NCBI GenBank assembly: GCA_947504725.1
Contig: CANNHN010000002.1
Coordinates: forward strand, 434,001-498,000
Origin: Bacteroidota bacterium
GTDB lineage: Bacteria; Bacteroidota; Bacteroidia; 2-12-FULL-35-15
DNA length: 64,000 bases
Reading direction: 5' to 3'
In this document: positions 10,729-15,545 of the stretch, one piece after another
How positions within the stretch are numbered: the first letter of the stretch is position 1
Layout: the number at the start of each line of letters is the position of its first letter
Notes under the pieces: model-generated
Seen by the model: the letters and a program-made list of their open reading frames with translations, nothing else
Databases searched by the model: none
What the model was told of the DNA's origin: nothing
Position numbers and translations under genes: made by a program

Positions 10729-10747
10729 ATTGTAATCCCAATAAATG

Positions 10748-10778
10748 TACATACATTAATTGCCTACCTTTGTATGTA
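10748..10778 (+). promoter_or_regulatory. Promoter with inverted-repeat candidate operator before the PKS cluster
   Basis: TACCTTTG at 10765-10772 is a perfect -7 element (TAnnTTTG). A perfect 8-bp inverted repeat, TACATACA at 10748-10755 and TGTATGTA at 10771-10778, brackets it, and the second arm runs into the ATG at 10778. Transcription would start at or within a few bases of the ATG, giving a leaderless mRNA. A dimeric regulator bound to the repeat would cover the promoter. Confidence 0.5.
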
Positions 10779-11683
10779 TGCCAACTTTAAATTTCATAAC
10801 CTGGTTTGATAAGAATACTGTAAAACATTTGCGGTTGCCGTTTTCATACCATTTGATGCCCGTTTTTTTGTTTGCCTTGAGTCAGAGTTCAAATTTTAAC
10901 TGGACAAATACAATCCTTGCTTTTCTCATTTTACATCTGCTTATTTATCCTTCCAGCAATGGTTATAATAGCTATCAAGATAAAGATGAAACAAGTATTG
11001 GAGGATTAAAAAATCCGCCTAAAGTCACCGAGAATTTATTTTATGCTACATTGCTTTTAGACGTTGTTGGTGTTTTATCTGCATTGTTAATATCTATAAA
11101 CTTTTCAGTCTTTGTTCTGTTATATGTATTGATTTCAAGAGCATATAGTTACAGAAATCTACGTTTGAAAAAATACGCAATTGTTGGATTCTTGACTGTT
11201 TTTCTTTTTCAAGGAGCATTTACTTTTTTAATGGTGTCAGCTGCAGTTACTGATTTTGAATTTAAAAATTATTTTACACTCAACAACATAATTTGTATGA
11301 GTGTTGCTAGTTTGTTTATTGGAAGTGTTTACCCGCTCACGCAGATTTATCAGCACGATGCCGATAAAAAGGATGGCGTAACAACCATCAGTTATAAGTT
11401 AGGCTATTTAGGAACATTTATTTTTTCATCGGTCTTATTTGGACTAGCAACAGGATTGTTGTTTTATTATTTCGATAAAAAAGCACAGCTCACAGCCTTG
11501 TTTTTATTTTTAACGTTAATGCTACCCGTTGTTGTTCGTTTATTCATCTGGTTTAACAAAGTGAGGAAAGATGCTGCGCATGCAAATTTTGAAAATACCA
11601 TGAGCATGAATTTAATGGCATCTACGTGTATGAATTGTTATTTTTTAATATTAATATTGAATACTAATTATAGTTGGTTTTGA
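10778..11683 (+). CDS. UbiA-family prenyltransferase
   Basis: 301 residues from ATG 10778. An integral membrane protein with about 8-9 helices. The two aspartate-rich motifs of the UbiA superfamily are visible: NSYQDKDE (after NGY, about residue 66) and HDADKKDG (about residue 195). These bind the magnesium-diphosphate of a prenyl donor, so the enzyme probably transfers an isoprenoid chain to an aromatic acceptor in the membrane. It is immediately followed (2 bases) by a type III polyketide synthase, which suggests that the acceptor is the polyketide phenol; that is inference. Classical MenA and UbiA homologues lie in quinone contexts, which this is not. Confidence 0.85.
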   Translation: MPTLNFITWFDKNTVKHLRLPFSYHLMPVFLFALSQSSNFNWTNTILAFLILHLLIYPSSNGYNSYQDKDETSIGGLKNPPKVTENLFYATLLLDVVGVLSALLISINFSVFVLLYVLISRAYSYRNLRLKKYAIVGFLTVFLFQGAFTFLMVSAAVTDFEFKNYFTLNNIICMSVASLFIGSVYPLTQIYQHDADKKDGVTTISYKLGYLGTFIFSSVLFGLATGLLFYYFDKKAQLTALFLFLTLMLPVVVRLFIWFNKVRKDAAHANFENTMSMNLMASTCMNCYFLILILNTNYSWF

Positions 11684-11685
11684 AG

Positions 11686-12768
11686 ATGAGTAAAATAATT
11701 TCTATAGGAACAGCAGTACCACAGCATCGCACAGCACAACCTGCGATACTAGAGTTTATGCAAGCCGCGTATGGGAATGATGTCACATCTCGTAAATTAA
11801 ATGTGCTCTTCAATAATAGTGGAATTAGTGCTCGTTACTCTGTGATTCCCGATTTTGATAAGAATAACAAGCAGCACATCTTTTTTAATGGAACACCAAG
11901 CACTGCCAATGTAAAAAACAGGTTGGATGTTTTTAAAGAACAGGCAATCCCTTTGGCGATAAAAGCAATAGATGATGCATTTATCAAAATAGATTCTCAG
12001 ATAAATACTTTTGGAGTAACGCATCTAATTTCTGTTACCTGTACAGGTTTGTCGGCTCCCGGTTTGTCGGCCGAGTTAATTGAAAAACTAAAACTACCGA
12101 CAGACATTTTTCATACTTCCGTGAATTTTTTGGGATGTAATGCAGCATTTCACGCCTTGAAAATTGCGGATATGATTATTAAGTCGGATGCAAAAGCAAA
12201 AGTGTTAATTGTATGCGTTGAATTGTGCACACTTCACTTTCAGCCGAAAAATGATCATGATAATTTATTGTCCAATACTATTTTTGGTGATGGAGCAGCA
12301 GCGGTGATTGTTACTTCAGATGATTCTGCTCAAAGAGGATTATCAATAAAAGGATTTTACTCTTTACTCCTAAACAAAGGAAAAGATTTGATGGGGTGGA
12401 ACATTACGCCAACGAATTTCGAAATGATTTTGGATGCGCAAATTCCCCAGGTAATCGGAGATGAAATAAATGAAATTTTAGAAAAGGGTTGTCGTAAATT
12501 AAATATAGAAACTGATTCAATTACCAAGTGGGCAATTCATCCTGGAGGTAAAAAAATTGTAGATGTCATTAAAAGTAAATTAGAATTGAGTGAAACTGAT
12601 ACGGAAGCATCTTACAAAGTTTTAAATGAATTTGGCAACATGTCGTCACCCACAATTTTATTTGTGTTGAATGAACTTTTTAAAGAAGCAAAAAGTGGGG
12701 AAACAATTTTTTCAATTGGATTTGGTCCCGGTTTAAGTATTGAAACTGCGTTTTTCGCTTATGAGTAA
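11686..12768 (+). CDS. Type III polyketide synthase (chalcone/stilbene synthase family)
   Basis: 360 residues from ATG 11686. A homodimeric ketosynthase that extends an acyl-CoA starter with malonyl-CoA and cyclises it without an acyl carrier protein. The catalytic triad is complete: Cys in NFLGCNAAFHAL, His in AIHPGGKKI and Asn in EFGNMSSPTILF. The N-terminal IISIGTAVPQHRT and the C-terminal GFGPGLSIE (the family GPG loop) are also present. Bacterial relatives make alkylresorcinols, alkylpyrones or tetrahydroxynaphthalene. The start is 2 bases after the prenyltransferase stop, and the next gene overlaps its end by 8 bases, so the genes are translationally coupled. Confidence 0.95.
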   Translation: MSKIISIGTAVPQHRTAQPAILEFMQAAYGNDVTSRKLNVLFNNSGISARYSVIPDFDKNNKQHIFFNGTPSTANVKNRLDVFKEQAIPLAIKAIDDAFIKIDSQINTFGVTHLISVTCTGLSAPGLSAELIEKLKLPTDIFHTSVNFLGCNAAFHALKIADMIIKSDAKAKVLIVCVELCTLHFQPKNDHDNLLSNTIFGDGAAAVIVTSDDSAQRGLSIKGFYSLLLNKGKDLMGWNITPTNFEMILDAQIPQVIGDEINEILEKGCRKLNIETDSITKWAIHPGGKKIVDVIKSKLELSETDTEASYKVLNEFGNMSSPTILFVLNELFKEAKSGETIFSIGFGPGLSIETAFFAYE

Positions 12769-13462
12769 ATTCTCTCATCGCTCCTACGAACTCGAATTGT
12801 TGGATGCTCCAAACATCCCCAAAGAATTACTTTTCAAAAATCTTCGCGAATTAGATGTTGTTAACCGTTTGTTGGGTGGACATGCCATTACGCTTTCTGG
12901 AATAAAAAAACTGGTTACGGATAGAAACAAAATTTATCGAATTGTGGATATTGGTTGCGGAGGTGGCGATGCAATGAAAAAAATTGCAGCATGGGCAAAA
13001 GCAAATCAGTTTGTTGTTGAGTTGATTGGAGTGGATATGAGTGCAGATGCGATTGCGTTTATGAAAGATGAATGCAAAGCCTTTCCCGAGATTACTGGAA
13101 TCGTGAGCGATTACCGCGAGTATCTAAAATTGAATACCGAAATAGACATTGTTCATTGCTCTTTATTTTGTCATCATCTAAAAGACGATGAATTGGTGGA
13201 GTTGTTTGACTACTTAAATGCGCATTCAAAAGTTGGATTCATCATCAACGATTTACAAAGGCATTGGTTTGCGTATTACAGTATTAAGTTTTTAACTCGT
13301 TTACTGAATGGTTCAATTTTAGTAAAAAATGACGCGCCACTTTCAGTATTGCGAGGGTTTAGAAAAGAAGAATTGAATGTGTTGTTGGAAAAATCTAAAG
13401 TTAAAAACTACACTATTAAATGGAAATGGGCTTTTAGGTACTTATTGTTATTAAAAAAATAA
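12761..13462 (+). CDS. SAM-dependent methyltransferase of the PKS cluster
   Basis: 233 residues from the ATG at 12761, which overlaps the polyketide synthase stop (ATGAGTAA). The class I SAM-binding glycine motif VDIGCGGGDAM lies at about residues 63-73, followed by LIGVDMSADAI (the acidic residue that holds the ribose) and an SDYREYL loop. A conserved N-terminal stretch (ELLDAPNIPKELL) is shared with methyltransferases that I recall next to type III PKS genes. It probably methylates an oxygen or carbon of the polyketide phenol, as SrsB does in Streptomyces. The substrate is inferred from context. Confidence 0.88.
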   Translation: MSKFSHRSYELELLDAPNIPKELLFKNLRELDVVNRLLGGHAITLSGIKKLVTDRNKIYRIVDIGCGGGDAMKKIAAWAKANQFVVELIGVDMSADAIAFMKDECKAFPEITGIVSDYREYLKLNTEIDIVHCSLFCHHLKDDELVELFDYLNAHSKVGFIINDLQRHWFAYYSIKFLTRLLNGSILVKNDAPLSVLRGFRKEELNVLLEKSKVKNYTIKWKWAFRYLLLLKK

Positions 13463-13466
13463 ATTA

Positions 13467-13546
13467 ACCGCTGAGAAAAAAGAGAAAAAGGGAGAATCGC
13501 TGAGTTTTTGAATTTTTCTCTGCGCCTTCTCTGCGAACTCTGCGGT
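13467..13546. repeat. Intergenic repeat, family A (GCAGAG type), two inverted arms
   Basis: Arm 1 (13467-13504) starts accgctgag four bases after the methyltransferase stop. Arm 2 (13518-13546) reads ctctgcgccttctctgcg and ends ctctgcggt six bases before the ATG at 13553. The arms are degenerate inverted copies of one unit built of GCAGAG/GCGCAGAG steps. Further copies lie at 14696, 18127, 24454 and 27335, and a related one at 52308. Confidence 0.8.
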
Positions 13547-13552
13547 AAAAAT

Positions 13553-14689
13553 ATGACTCAACATAATTCATATCAAGTTTCCATCATCGGTGGCGGATTA
13601 GCCGGCCTAACATTAGCCATCCAGTTGGCTAATGAAGGTTACTCTTGTGTACTCTTCGAAAAAAACAAATATCCTTTTCATAAAGTTTGTGGTGAATACA
13701 TCTCGATGGAATCTTGGAATTTTTTAGATCGATTGGGATTAAATTTATCAGAATTGAATTTACCTAAGATTACTCGTCTACAAGTTTCATCCCTCTCCGG
13801 AAAATTATTAAAACACCAATTGGATCTTGGAGGCTTCGGAATTAGCCGTTATCTGCTGGACTCCAAACTAGCAGAAATTGCAAAAGCTAAAGGAGTAATT
13901 TTATTAGATGATTGTCGAGTGAATGATGTAAAATTTGAAAACGAAAAATTCACAATCGATTCCTCGAAAGGAAATTTTAGTTCAGAAATCTGTGTCGGAG
14001 CCTGGGGTAAAAAAAGTAATCTCGATAATAAGTTGCGGAGCGTGTCCCCCTCTGGAGGGGGCAGGGGGAGGAATTATGTCGGTATCAAATATCACATTAA
14101 CATTGATTTTCCTAATGATTTAATAGAACTCCATAATTTTGAAAATGGCTATTGTGGTATTTCTAAAATAGAAGACAATAGATATTGTTTGTGTTATTTA
14201 ACCGATTCGGAGAATCTTAAAAAGTATAATGGCGACATTAAAAAGATGGAACAAGAAATCCTTTTTAAAAACGCATTCTTGAAAGACTACTTTACAAAAG
14301 CAAATTTTTTATTTGAAGAACCATTAGCCATTTCACAAATCAAGATTGGTTATAAAAATGCAGTGGAAAACAAACTATTGATGATTGGTGATACAGCTGG
14401 AAACATTGCTCCATTGAGCGGAAACGGCATGAGTATGGCCATGAGAAGCTCTTTTTTTCTAAATCAATTGCTTGTCGATTATTTTAATCAGAAGATTTCA
14501 CGAATAGAATTAGAAGACAACTATTCACACTTCTGGGAAAAACAATTTAAGAGTAGAGTTGATTTTTCTGAGTTTTTACAAAAGCTTTTGAAAAATACTA
14601 CGATGACAAACTTTGCAATTGGTGTTTTAAAAGCAATTCCGTTTTTGAGAAATGTTGTTGAGAAATCAACCCACGGAAAACCATTCTAA
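13553..14689 (+). CDS. FAD-dependent oxidoreductase of the PKS cluster
   Basis: 378 residues from ATG 13553; the longer frame from 13508 would translate the repeat and is rejected. The Rossmann FAD motif SIIGGGLAGLTLA and an acidic strand end (LFEKNKYPFHKVCGEYIS, as in geranylgeranyl-reductase/monooxygenase-type flavoproteins) begin the protein. GDTAGNIAPLSGNGMSMA, the second FAD motif, lies near residue 280. In srsABC-type loci the equivalent enzyme hydroxylates the phenolic lipid to a hydroquinone/quinone; that role is inferred here. Odd feature: residues about 164-173 are encoded by a GC-rich palindromic repeat embedded in the gene. The gene is flanked by inverted family A repeats. Confidence 0.88.
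   Translation: MTQHNSYQVSIIGGGLAGLTLAIQLANEGYSCVLFEKNKYPFHKVCGEYISMESWNFLDRLGLNLSELNLPKITRLQVSSLSGKLLKHQLDLGGFGISRYLLDSKLAEIAKAKGVILLDDCRVNDVKFENEKFTIDSSKGNFSSEICVGAWGKKSNLDNKLRSVSPSGGGRGRNYVGIKYHINIDFPNDLIELHNFENGYCGISKIEDNRYCLCYLTDSENLKKYNGDIKKMEQEILFKNAFLKDYFTKANFLFEEPLAISQIKIGYKNAVENKLLMIGDTAGNIAPLSGNGMSMAMRSSFFLNQLLVDYFNQKISRIELEDNYSHFWEKQFKSRVDFSEFLQKLLKNTTMTNFAIGVLKAIPFLRNVVEKSTHGKPF
14045..14071. repeat. Family C palindromic repeat inside the FAD oxidoreductase coding sequence
   Basis: A 27-base GC-rich segment beginning tccccctctggagggggc and ending aggggggagg-like (five Gs at 14063-14068) stands out in AT-rich DNA. It contains the palindrome CCCCCTCTGGAGGGGG, able to form a tight hairpin. 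It keeps the reading frame and adds a Ser-Pro-Ser-Gly-Gly-Gly-Arg-Gly-Arg stretch to the protein. Similar TCCCCCTxxGGAGGGGG units are, from memory, frequent intergenic repeats in Bacteroidota. Confidence 0.75.
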
Positions 14690-14695
14690 AATCTA

Positions 14696-14733
14696 ACCGC
14701 AGAGGGCGCTGAGAAGGCGCAGAGAACGCTAAG
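14696..14733. repeat. Family A repeat, single arm, downstream of the FAD oxidoreductase
   Basis: Begins accgcagagggcgctgag six bases after the stop at 14689 and continues with GCGCAGAG and CGCTAAG steps. It is an inverted counterpart of the arm at 13518-13546, so the FAD oxidoreductase gene lies between inverted copies. Confidence 0.8.
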
Positions 14734-14756: not shown

Positions 14757-15545
14757 ATGAATTTAGATCTATCAGGAAAAACAGCAATGGTGTGTGGTAG
14801 TACACAAGGCATTGGAAAAGCATCAGCAATAGAATTGGCATTGCTTGGAGCAAATATTGTGTTGGTTGCTCGTAACGAGGAATCCTTAAAAACAGCCATG
14901 AAAGATTTGGATGTTTCGAAAGGACAAAAACATAATTTCCTTGTTGCCGATTTTCAGCAATCTAATTTATTAAAAGAAAAACTCGACAACTTTGTGGCAA
15001 CGCAAGGAGTAATTCACATTCTTGTAAACAATACAGGTGGACCACCAAGCGGGCTTATTCAGAATGCAAAAGTGGATGAGTTTTTACAAGCATTCAACAA
15101 TCATTTGGTTTGCAACCATATTTTAGTGCAGGCATTACTTAGCGGAATGAAAGAAGCGCATTACGGGCGAGTAATAAATATCATCAGCACCTCTGTTAAA
15201 ATTCCTTTGAAAAATTTAGGTGTATCAAATACCATTCGTGCTGCAGTTGCAAATTGGAGCAAGACCTTGGCAAATGAAGTAGCATCATTCGGAATTACTG
15301 TAAACAATGTACTTCCCGGAGCAACATTAACTGGACGATTAAGTACCATCATCGAAAATAAATCAAAAAATACAGGTGAATCACTAAACGAAATCAAGAA
15401 TGAAATGGAAAGTGAAATTCCATTGGGCCGTTTTGCTGAACCTTCAGAAGTTGCCAATGCGGTTGCATTTTTAGCTTCTCCTGCCGCTTCTTATATTACT
15501 GGTATAAATATTCCTGTGGATGGTGGAAGAACTGGGAATTTGTAG
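14757..15545 (+). CDS. Short-chain dehydrogenase/reductase with atypical active site
   Basis: 262 residues, classical SDR length. The cofactor motif is VCGSTQGIGKA at residues 12-22 (usual TGxxxGIG) and VNNTGGPPSG (usual NNAG) lies at about 90-99. The active-site serine region NIISTS is present. The Tyr-x-x-x-Lys pair is replaced: aligned positions read Ser157 and Arg161 (GVSNTIRAAVANW). I recall a FabG-like SDR subgroup with exactly this SNTIR block, whose reaction is unknown. The C-terminal SYITGINIPVDGG is typical. It follows the PKS cluster after a 67-base gap containing a repeat, so cluster membership is possible but not certain. Confidence 0.9.
   Translation: MNLDLSGKTAMVCGSTQGIGKASAIELALLGANIVLVARNEESLKTAMKDLDVSKGQKHNFLVADFQQSNLLKEKLDNFVATQGVIHILVNNTGGPPSGLIQNAKVDEFLQAFNNHLVCNHILVQALLSGMKEAHYGRVINIISTSVKIPLKNLGVSNTIRAAVANWSKTLANEVASFGITVNNVLPGATLTGRLSTIIENKSKNTGESLNEIKNEMESEIPLGRFAEPSEVANAVAFLASPAASYITGINIPVDGGRTGNL

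Follow-up and report, generated by a model that had tools for sequence, protein, structure and literature searches.

A conserved four-gene type III polyketide cluster with a prenyltransferase in Bacteroidota, a probable source of prenylated phenolic lipids

The four genes at positions 10778 to 14689 of the window (the whole 64 kb stretch of DNA that was analyzed) most likely constitute a conserved and apparently uncharacterized pathway that leads to a phenolic polyketide lipid with methyl, hydroxyl and prenyl groups. They encode, in order, a UbiA-family prenyltransferase, a type III polyketide synthase (PKS), a methyltransferase and a flavoprotein, and all are intact. Type III PKS genes occur in almost half of the sampled Bacteroidota genomes (180/396, drawn across the phylum), and our literature search, which had little coverage of subscription journals, found neither a characterization of this cluster in Bacteroidota nor a report of a product for it. 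The four-gene unit offers a clean, testable route to that product: it is small and intact, soil genera that can be cultured carry it, and its UbiA is PKS-dependent at the genome level. If the product is indeed a prenylated quinone-type lipid, the phylum would gain a widespread class of membrane or signaling lipid, and also a UbiA subfamily whose active-site motif is unusual.

Layout, promoter and inheritance of the cluster

The ubiA gene (10778 to 11683; 301 aa; PF01040 at 53.4 bits, cut-off 34.2) encodes a membrane prenyltransferase and is followed on the same, forward strand by the type III PKS gene (11686 to 12768; 360 aa; PF00195 and PF02797 above cut-off), a SAM-dependent methyltransferase gene (12761 to 13462; 233 aa; PF13649 and PF13847 above cut-off), and a gene for an FAD-dependent oxidoreductase of the HKVCGEY type, a probable ring hydroxylase (13553 to 14689; 378 aa; PF01494 and PF01266). 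Gene calls and Pfam matches bear out the order given in an earlier note on this DNA, together with its 2-base gap between ubiA and the PKS gene (TGA ending at 11683, ATG at 11686) and its 8-base overlap of the PKS and methyltransferase genes (shared bases 12761 to 12768). The tight packing that the note ascribed to all four genes holds for the first three but not for the flavoprotein gene, whose likely ATG at 13553 lies 90 bases past the methyltransferase stop, beyond a spacer that holds a repeated intergenic element. Purifying selection acts on each of the four genes, with pN/pS of 0.09–0.26 against same-genus relatives, among which synonymous sites are saturated beyond the two nearest.

A promoter element of the Bacteroidota −7 type (TACCTTTG, 10765 to 10772, forward strand) lies 13 bases before the ubiA ATG. 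Near-leaderless transcription from the ubiA start is plausible, because TAnnTTTG recurs at −12 to −15 from this codon at 12 of 16 loci (the window included), as against a background of 32 occurrences on the forward strand of the 64 kb window, or about 0.5 per kb. The leaderless promoter with an inverted repeat that had been proposed for this region is thus upheld in one part: the −7 element at −13 is conserved, but the inverted repeat (CATACAT/ATGTATG, 10750 to 10756 and 10774 to 10780), which spans the ubiA start codon, is kept only in a near relative, L031. An AT-rich dyad directly upstream of the promoter element (ATGTACATACAT, 10745 to 10756) may be a weak candidate for an operator. A half-dyad resembling ATGTAnnTACAT recurs more loosely among the loci—L041 has a similar ATGTAnnTACAT, and L036 a related palindrome—and is absent from most relatives.

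Within the genus, type III PKSs of the cluster's kind were found in 19 of the 35 genomes searched, and many of the genomes bearing them share the order radA-ubiA-pks-mt-fad-sdr; no match was found in the other 16, nearly complete genomes among them. In three same-genus genomes with no type III PKS match (L140, L141 and L148), sdr comes right after radA, at gaps of 33–46 bases. Because radA adjoins sdr where the cluster is missing, the unit of gain or loss is exactly the four genes ubiA-pks-mt-fad, and the SDR gene (14757 to 15545), considered as a fifth member, was rejected.

The reading in the earlier note depended on the four genes co-occurring in relatives, and they do so as a unit: the order ubiA-pks-mt-fad is present at 56 of 80 public Bacteroidota loci, and UbiA, PKS and methyltransferase occur together at 12 more. 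In the survey of 396 genomes, every genome with this UbiA subfamily (membership set at 250 bits or more) also carries a type III PKS relative—26/26, compared with 180/396 (Fisher p about 4e-10), and 19/19 versus 89/172 at the genus level (p about 1e-6)—although these p values overstate independence, as the genomes and loci share descent. The two genes are neighbors in 20 of the 26 genomes, and are unlinked yet co-occurring in 6. UbiA matches of the f45 family, which are weaker (100–135 bits) and lie off the PKS contig in the cases compared, were left out of the subfamily.

Known systems and the polyketide synthase

The PKS-methyltransferase-flavoprotein order had been likened to that of srsABC in Streptomyces griseus, a comparison that the gene order here supports, with UbiA implied to be a new addition to such a set. 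srsABC as described has no prenyltransferase, whereas here UbiA sits inside the same block of gain and loss. The combination of UbiA, PKS, methyltransferase and flavoprotein is not new, however, because agqABCD of Actinoplanes missouriensis, as later papers describe it, already has it. The steps of the agq pathway have reportedly been assigned singly to agqB–D. In those later accounts, a type III PKS, a methyltransferase, a hydroxylase and a membrane prenyltransferase share one cluster, as they do here, and the products are alkyl-O-dihydrogeranyl-methoxyhydroquinones (Awakawa 2011, as cited in PMC10896814, PMC7692728, PMC4044012). The window's cluster holds this agq-type set of type III PKS, methyltransferase, flavoprotein and UbiA together, but the agq system is actinobacterial, while the Bacteroidota cluster has ubiA first and two alternative flavoproteins. 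Motif 2 of the Bacteroidota UbiA reads QxxxD, and the comparison with agq is at the level of enzyme classes. Three enzyme classes are also common to the cluster here, to hidABC of the cyanobacterial hierridins, and to planctomycetal methyltransferase-oxidoreductase-PKS operons, whose PKSs were shown to make C15 and C17 alkylresorcinols (PMC10896814). These systems differ in gene order and, in the standard cluster, lack UbiA; one Raphidiopsis hid-like cluster does carry a prenyltransferase (PMC8086630). What is new in the present case is the breadth of the cluster in Bacteroidota, its gain and loss as a block, the exchange of its flavoprotein, and the QxxxD subfamily of UbiA.

The PKS has both the CHS-like fold domains and the complete Cys-His-Asn triad of a type III enzyme. 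The triad (C151, H285 and N318), already recognized in the earlier note, shows no change in 16 of 16 relatives, and it aligns with that of Pks18, in an alignment that also takes in Steely1 and Ectocarpus PKS1. In the pathway that we propose, the enzyme would extend an acyl starter, probably a fatty acyl, with malonyl units and cyclize the chain to a resorcinol-type phenol, which the methyltransferase would methylate. It is possible, if somewhat unlikely, that the PKS product is an alkylpyrone, or else a small unit of the phloroglucinol or dihydroxyphenylacetate type, instead of a long-chain resorcinol: its closest solved relatives include Pks18 (an alkylpyrone enzyme), Ectocarpus PKS1 and Steely1, and its best NCBIfam match is DpgA, at 185 bits, below the cut-off of 425. 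However, methylation, aromatic hydroxylation and prenylation, the reactions expected of the accompanying enzymes, would more naturally take place on a phenol. For the methyltransferase, which also matches Methyltransf_25, structure comparison returned no close solved structure, and none that separates O- from C-methylation; this enzyme and the flavoprotein fit methylation and ring hydroxylation.

The UbiA enzyme

UbiA would draw on an isoprenoid diphosphate to prenylate the ring or a hydroxyl group. Its predicted structure (pLDDT 94.8) has the multi-helix membrane fold of the UbiA type, and the Foldseek matches of this model at E ≤ 0.001 are UbiA-fold prenyltransferases only (DGGGP synthase, AfUbiA, UBIAD1 and a membrane-bound PRTase). 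Both Asp motifs had been taken to be intact. This is so for motif 1 (N64xxxD68xD70), which is kept in 67 of 67 homologues and has the same pattern as that of Aeropyrum ApUbiA, but motif 2 reads Q192xxxD196, with D196 kept and glutamine replacing the first Asp of DxxxD in 67 of 67. This invariant glutamine could point to an altered or different UbiA reaction.

The enzyme is dedicated to the cluster, because the genome has separate UbiA paralogues: a heme O synthase, an MqnP-type enzyme and a GGGP-synthase-like enzyme. A profile search returned no match of the cluster UbiA to the MqnP-type model TIGR01475, and none to the EboC family, membership of which was therefore rejected. The EboC / Ubi-297 prenyltransferases of marine Flavobacteria are likewise UbiA-like enzymes of Bacteroidota in a conserved operon, but the ebo neighborhood is without a type III PKS (PMC9235831). 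A type I IPP isomerase gene adjoins the cluster at L071 (TIGR02150 at 123.5 bits, above the cut-off of 105.8), and homologues adjoin those at L038, L049 and L110, which fits the use of isoprenoids by the cluster.

We consider it unlikely that the core enzymes yield a methylated phenolic lipid or quinone that carries no prenyl group, in the manner of srsABC or hidABC, with UbiA otherwise employed, for example in non-canonical chemistry or membrane scaffolding. The glutamine in motif 2 would be consistent with such a role, as would the loci at which no UbiA lies nearby—PKS-methyltransferase-FAD in Pontibacter (L102 and L129) and PKS-methyltransferase in Emticicia (L076 and L079)—and the absence of this UbiA subfamily from most PKS-bearing Bacteroidota genomes. 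Yet the subfamily always occurs with a PKS, the other conserved residues of the enzyme are all kept, its predicted fold is prenyltransferase-like, and IPP isomerase genes stand beside some clusters.

The flavoprotein and the proposed product

In the prenylated route, the flavoprotein would hydroxylate the ring, bringing it to the hydroquinone or quinone level. Its predicted structure (pLDDT 88.1) matches flavin halogenases and aromatic monooxygenases; its CGE motif is invariant, and the protein lacks the Asp of the DG fingerprint, reading GA[W/F/Y]GK there. A halogenase identity was rejected despite the similar fold, as a motif survey found WxWxIP in 0 of 59 flavoproteins. UbiA-PKS-methyltransferase loci without the CGEY flavoprotein usually carry in the same slot an FAD protein of 520–540 aa, a group A aromatic-ring hydroxylase (PF01494 at 274–282 bits) whose nearest solved relatives are rifampin monooxygenase, PgaE and 2-hydroxybiphenyl 3-monooxygenase. 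Among the loci in the PKS tree, 74 have the CGEY flavoprotein and 13 the aromatic hydroxylase; the two were never seen together, and starred branches force at least two flavoprotein changes, one of them inside the window's own genus (L038 versus L049/L050). Because a canonical aromatic hydroxylase takes the flavoprotein's place in other lineages, the flavoprotein step is probably ring hydroxylation, and this swap is the best evidence for it.

It is doubtful that the flavoprotein acts on the prenyl chain, as a reductase of the geranylgeranyl reductase (GGR) type, to leave a saturated tail or a dihydro-prenyl one as in the agq product. Its best NCBIfam match is TIGR02032 (geranylgeranyl reductase superfamily) and its CGE motif is invariant, but the score of 95.3 bits falls below the cut-off of 158.8, and YxWxFP, the motif of geranylgeranyl reductases, was absent from 59 of 59 flavoproteins in the motif survey; on these two grounds a GGR identity was rejected. 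The nearest folds are, moreover, those of halogenases and aromatic monooxygenases, and the GGR-like 3oz2 comes no higher than rank 35; bona fide aromatic hydroxylases substitute for the flavoprotein; and it is retained by PKS-methyltransferase pairs with no UbiA nearby (L051, L102 and L129).

By analogy with agqABCD, we think it probable that the four genes form a self-contained pathway in which a polyketide phenol is made, methylated, hydroxylated on the ring and prenylated. The sequence comparisons themselves establish what the genes are, that the PKS triad is intact, that the cluster is inherited as a unit, that UbiA depends on the PKS at the genome level and that the flavoprotein and the aromatic hydroxylase replace each other; the choice of starter and ring, the sequence of the reactions, the length of the prenyl group and where it is attached, and the product and its role are inferred. 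A broader proposal is offered tentatively: that prenylated polyketide (hydro)quinone lipids are made throughout Bacteroidota by way of a UbiA subfamily whose diphosphate-binding motif is altered to QxxxD, perhaps serving in the membrane as accessory redox or protective lipids, with ring oxidation swapped between two distinct flavoprotein families.

The suggestion of a prenylated product or a non-canonical quinone stands insofar as a prenylated phenolic or quinone-type lipid is the best-supported product, but a replacement respiratory quinone is unlikely. Menaquinone is evidently made by the futalosine pathway outside the cluster, because two PF02621 matches occur elsewhere in the genome; a MenD-based route was rejected, its sole match being, by sequence, an acetolactate synthase. 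Ubiquinone synthesis also uses a UbiA, a methyltransferase and a flavoprotein, but that the cluster supplies the respiratory quinone of the cell is highly improbable, given the futalosine genes and MqnP-type UbiA elsewhere and the 16 of 35 same-genus genomes without a type III PKS match. These genes instead mark the cluster, on sequence grounds, as accessory to the main quinone pathway, whose MqnP-type UbiA (L135) scores 291.8 bits on TIGR01475, above the cut-off of 180.8.

Repeats within and around the flavoprotein gene

The gene for the FAD-dependent oxidoreductase of the CGEY type, a probable ring hydroxylase, contains a GC-rich palindromic repeat, TCCCCCTCTGGAGGGGGCAGGGGGAGG, which lies in frame within the coding sequence (14045-14071). 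With up to three mismatches, three copies occur genome-wide, versus none in the reversed control. The repeat falls within a surface loop (residues ~163-174) that the predicted flavoprotein structure places with low confidence; this loop differs in both sequence and length between relatives, and is 7 aa longer at locus L030 and 11 aa longer at L032.

A second element, CTGCGCCTTCTCnGCG..CTCTGCGG, flanks the same gene, on one side on the forward strand (13520-13545) and on the other as an inverted copy on the reverse strand (14697-14722); the genome holds seven copies of it, versus none in the reversed control. At the related loci L037 and L039, the gap between the methyltransferase and flavoprotein genes measures 1.6-2.6 kb.

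Variant clusters in relatives

In lineages from which the CGEY flavoprotein is absent, genes for a group A aromatic hydroxylase and an IPP isomerase adjoin ubiA-pks-mt (L071, 8779-11473; L049, 4238-6644). Another relative, L051 (7151-12795), has the PKS, methyltransferase and flavoprotein genes with no UbiA gene nearby. Adjoining these three are genes whose products, judged by eye, resemble an ACP, FabF-like KS, FabZ-like and FabG-like proteins and a phosphopantetheinyl transferase, which suggests an ACP-fed variant of the cluster.

Two cluster copies in one genome

In one same-genus genome (G011), contig C513 holds the four-gene cluster twice, as the divergent copies L037 and L038, ~21 kb apart; their type III polyketide synthases share 73% and 41% identity, respectively, with that of the window.
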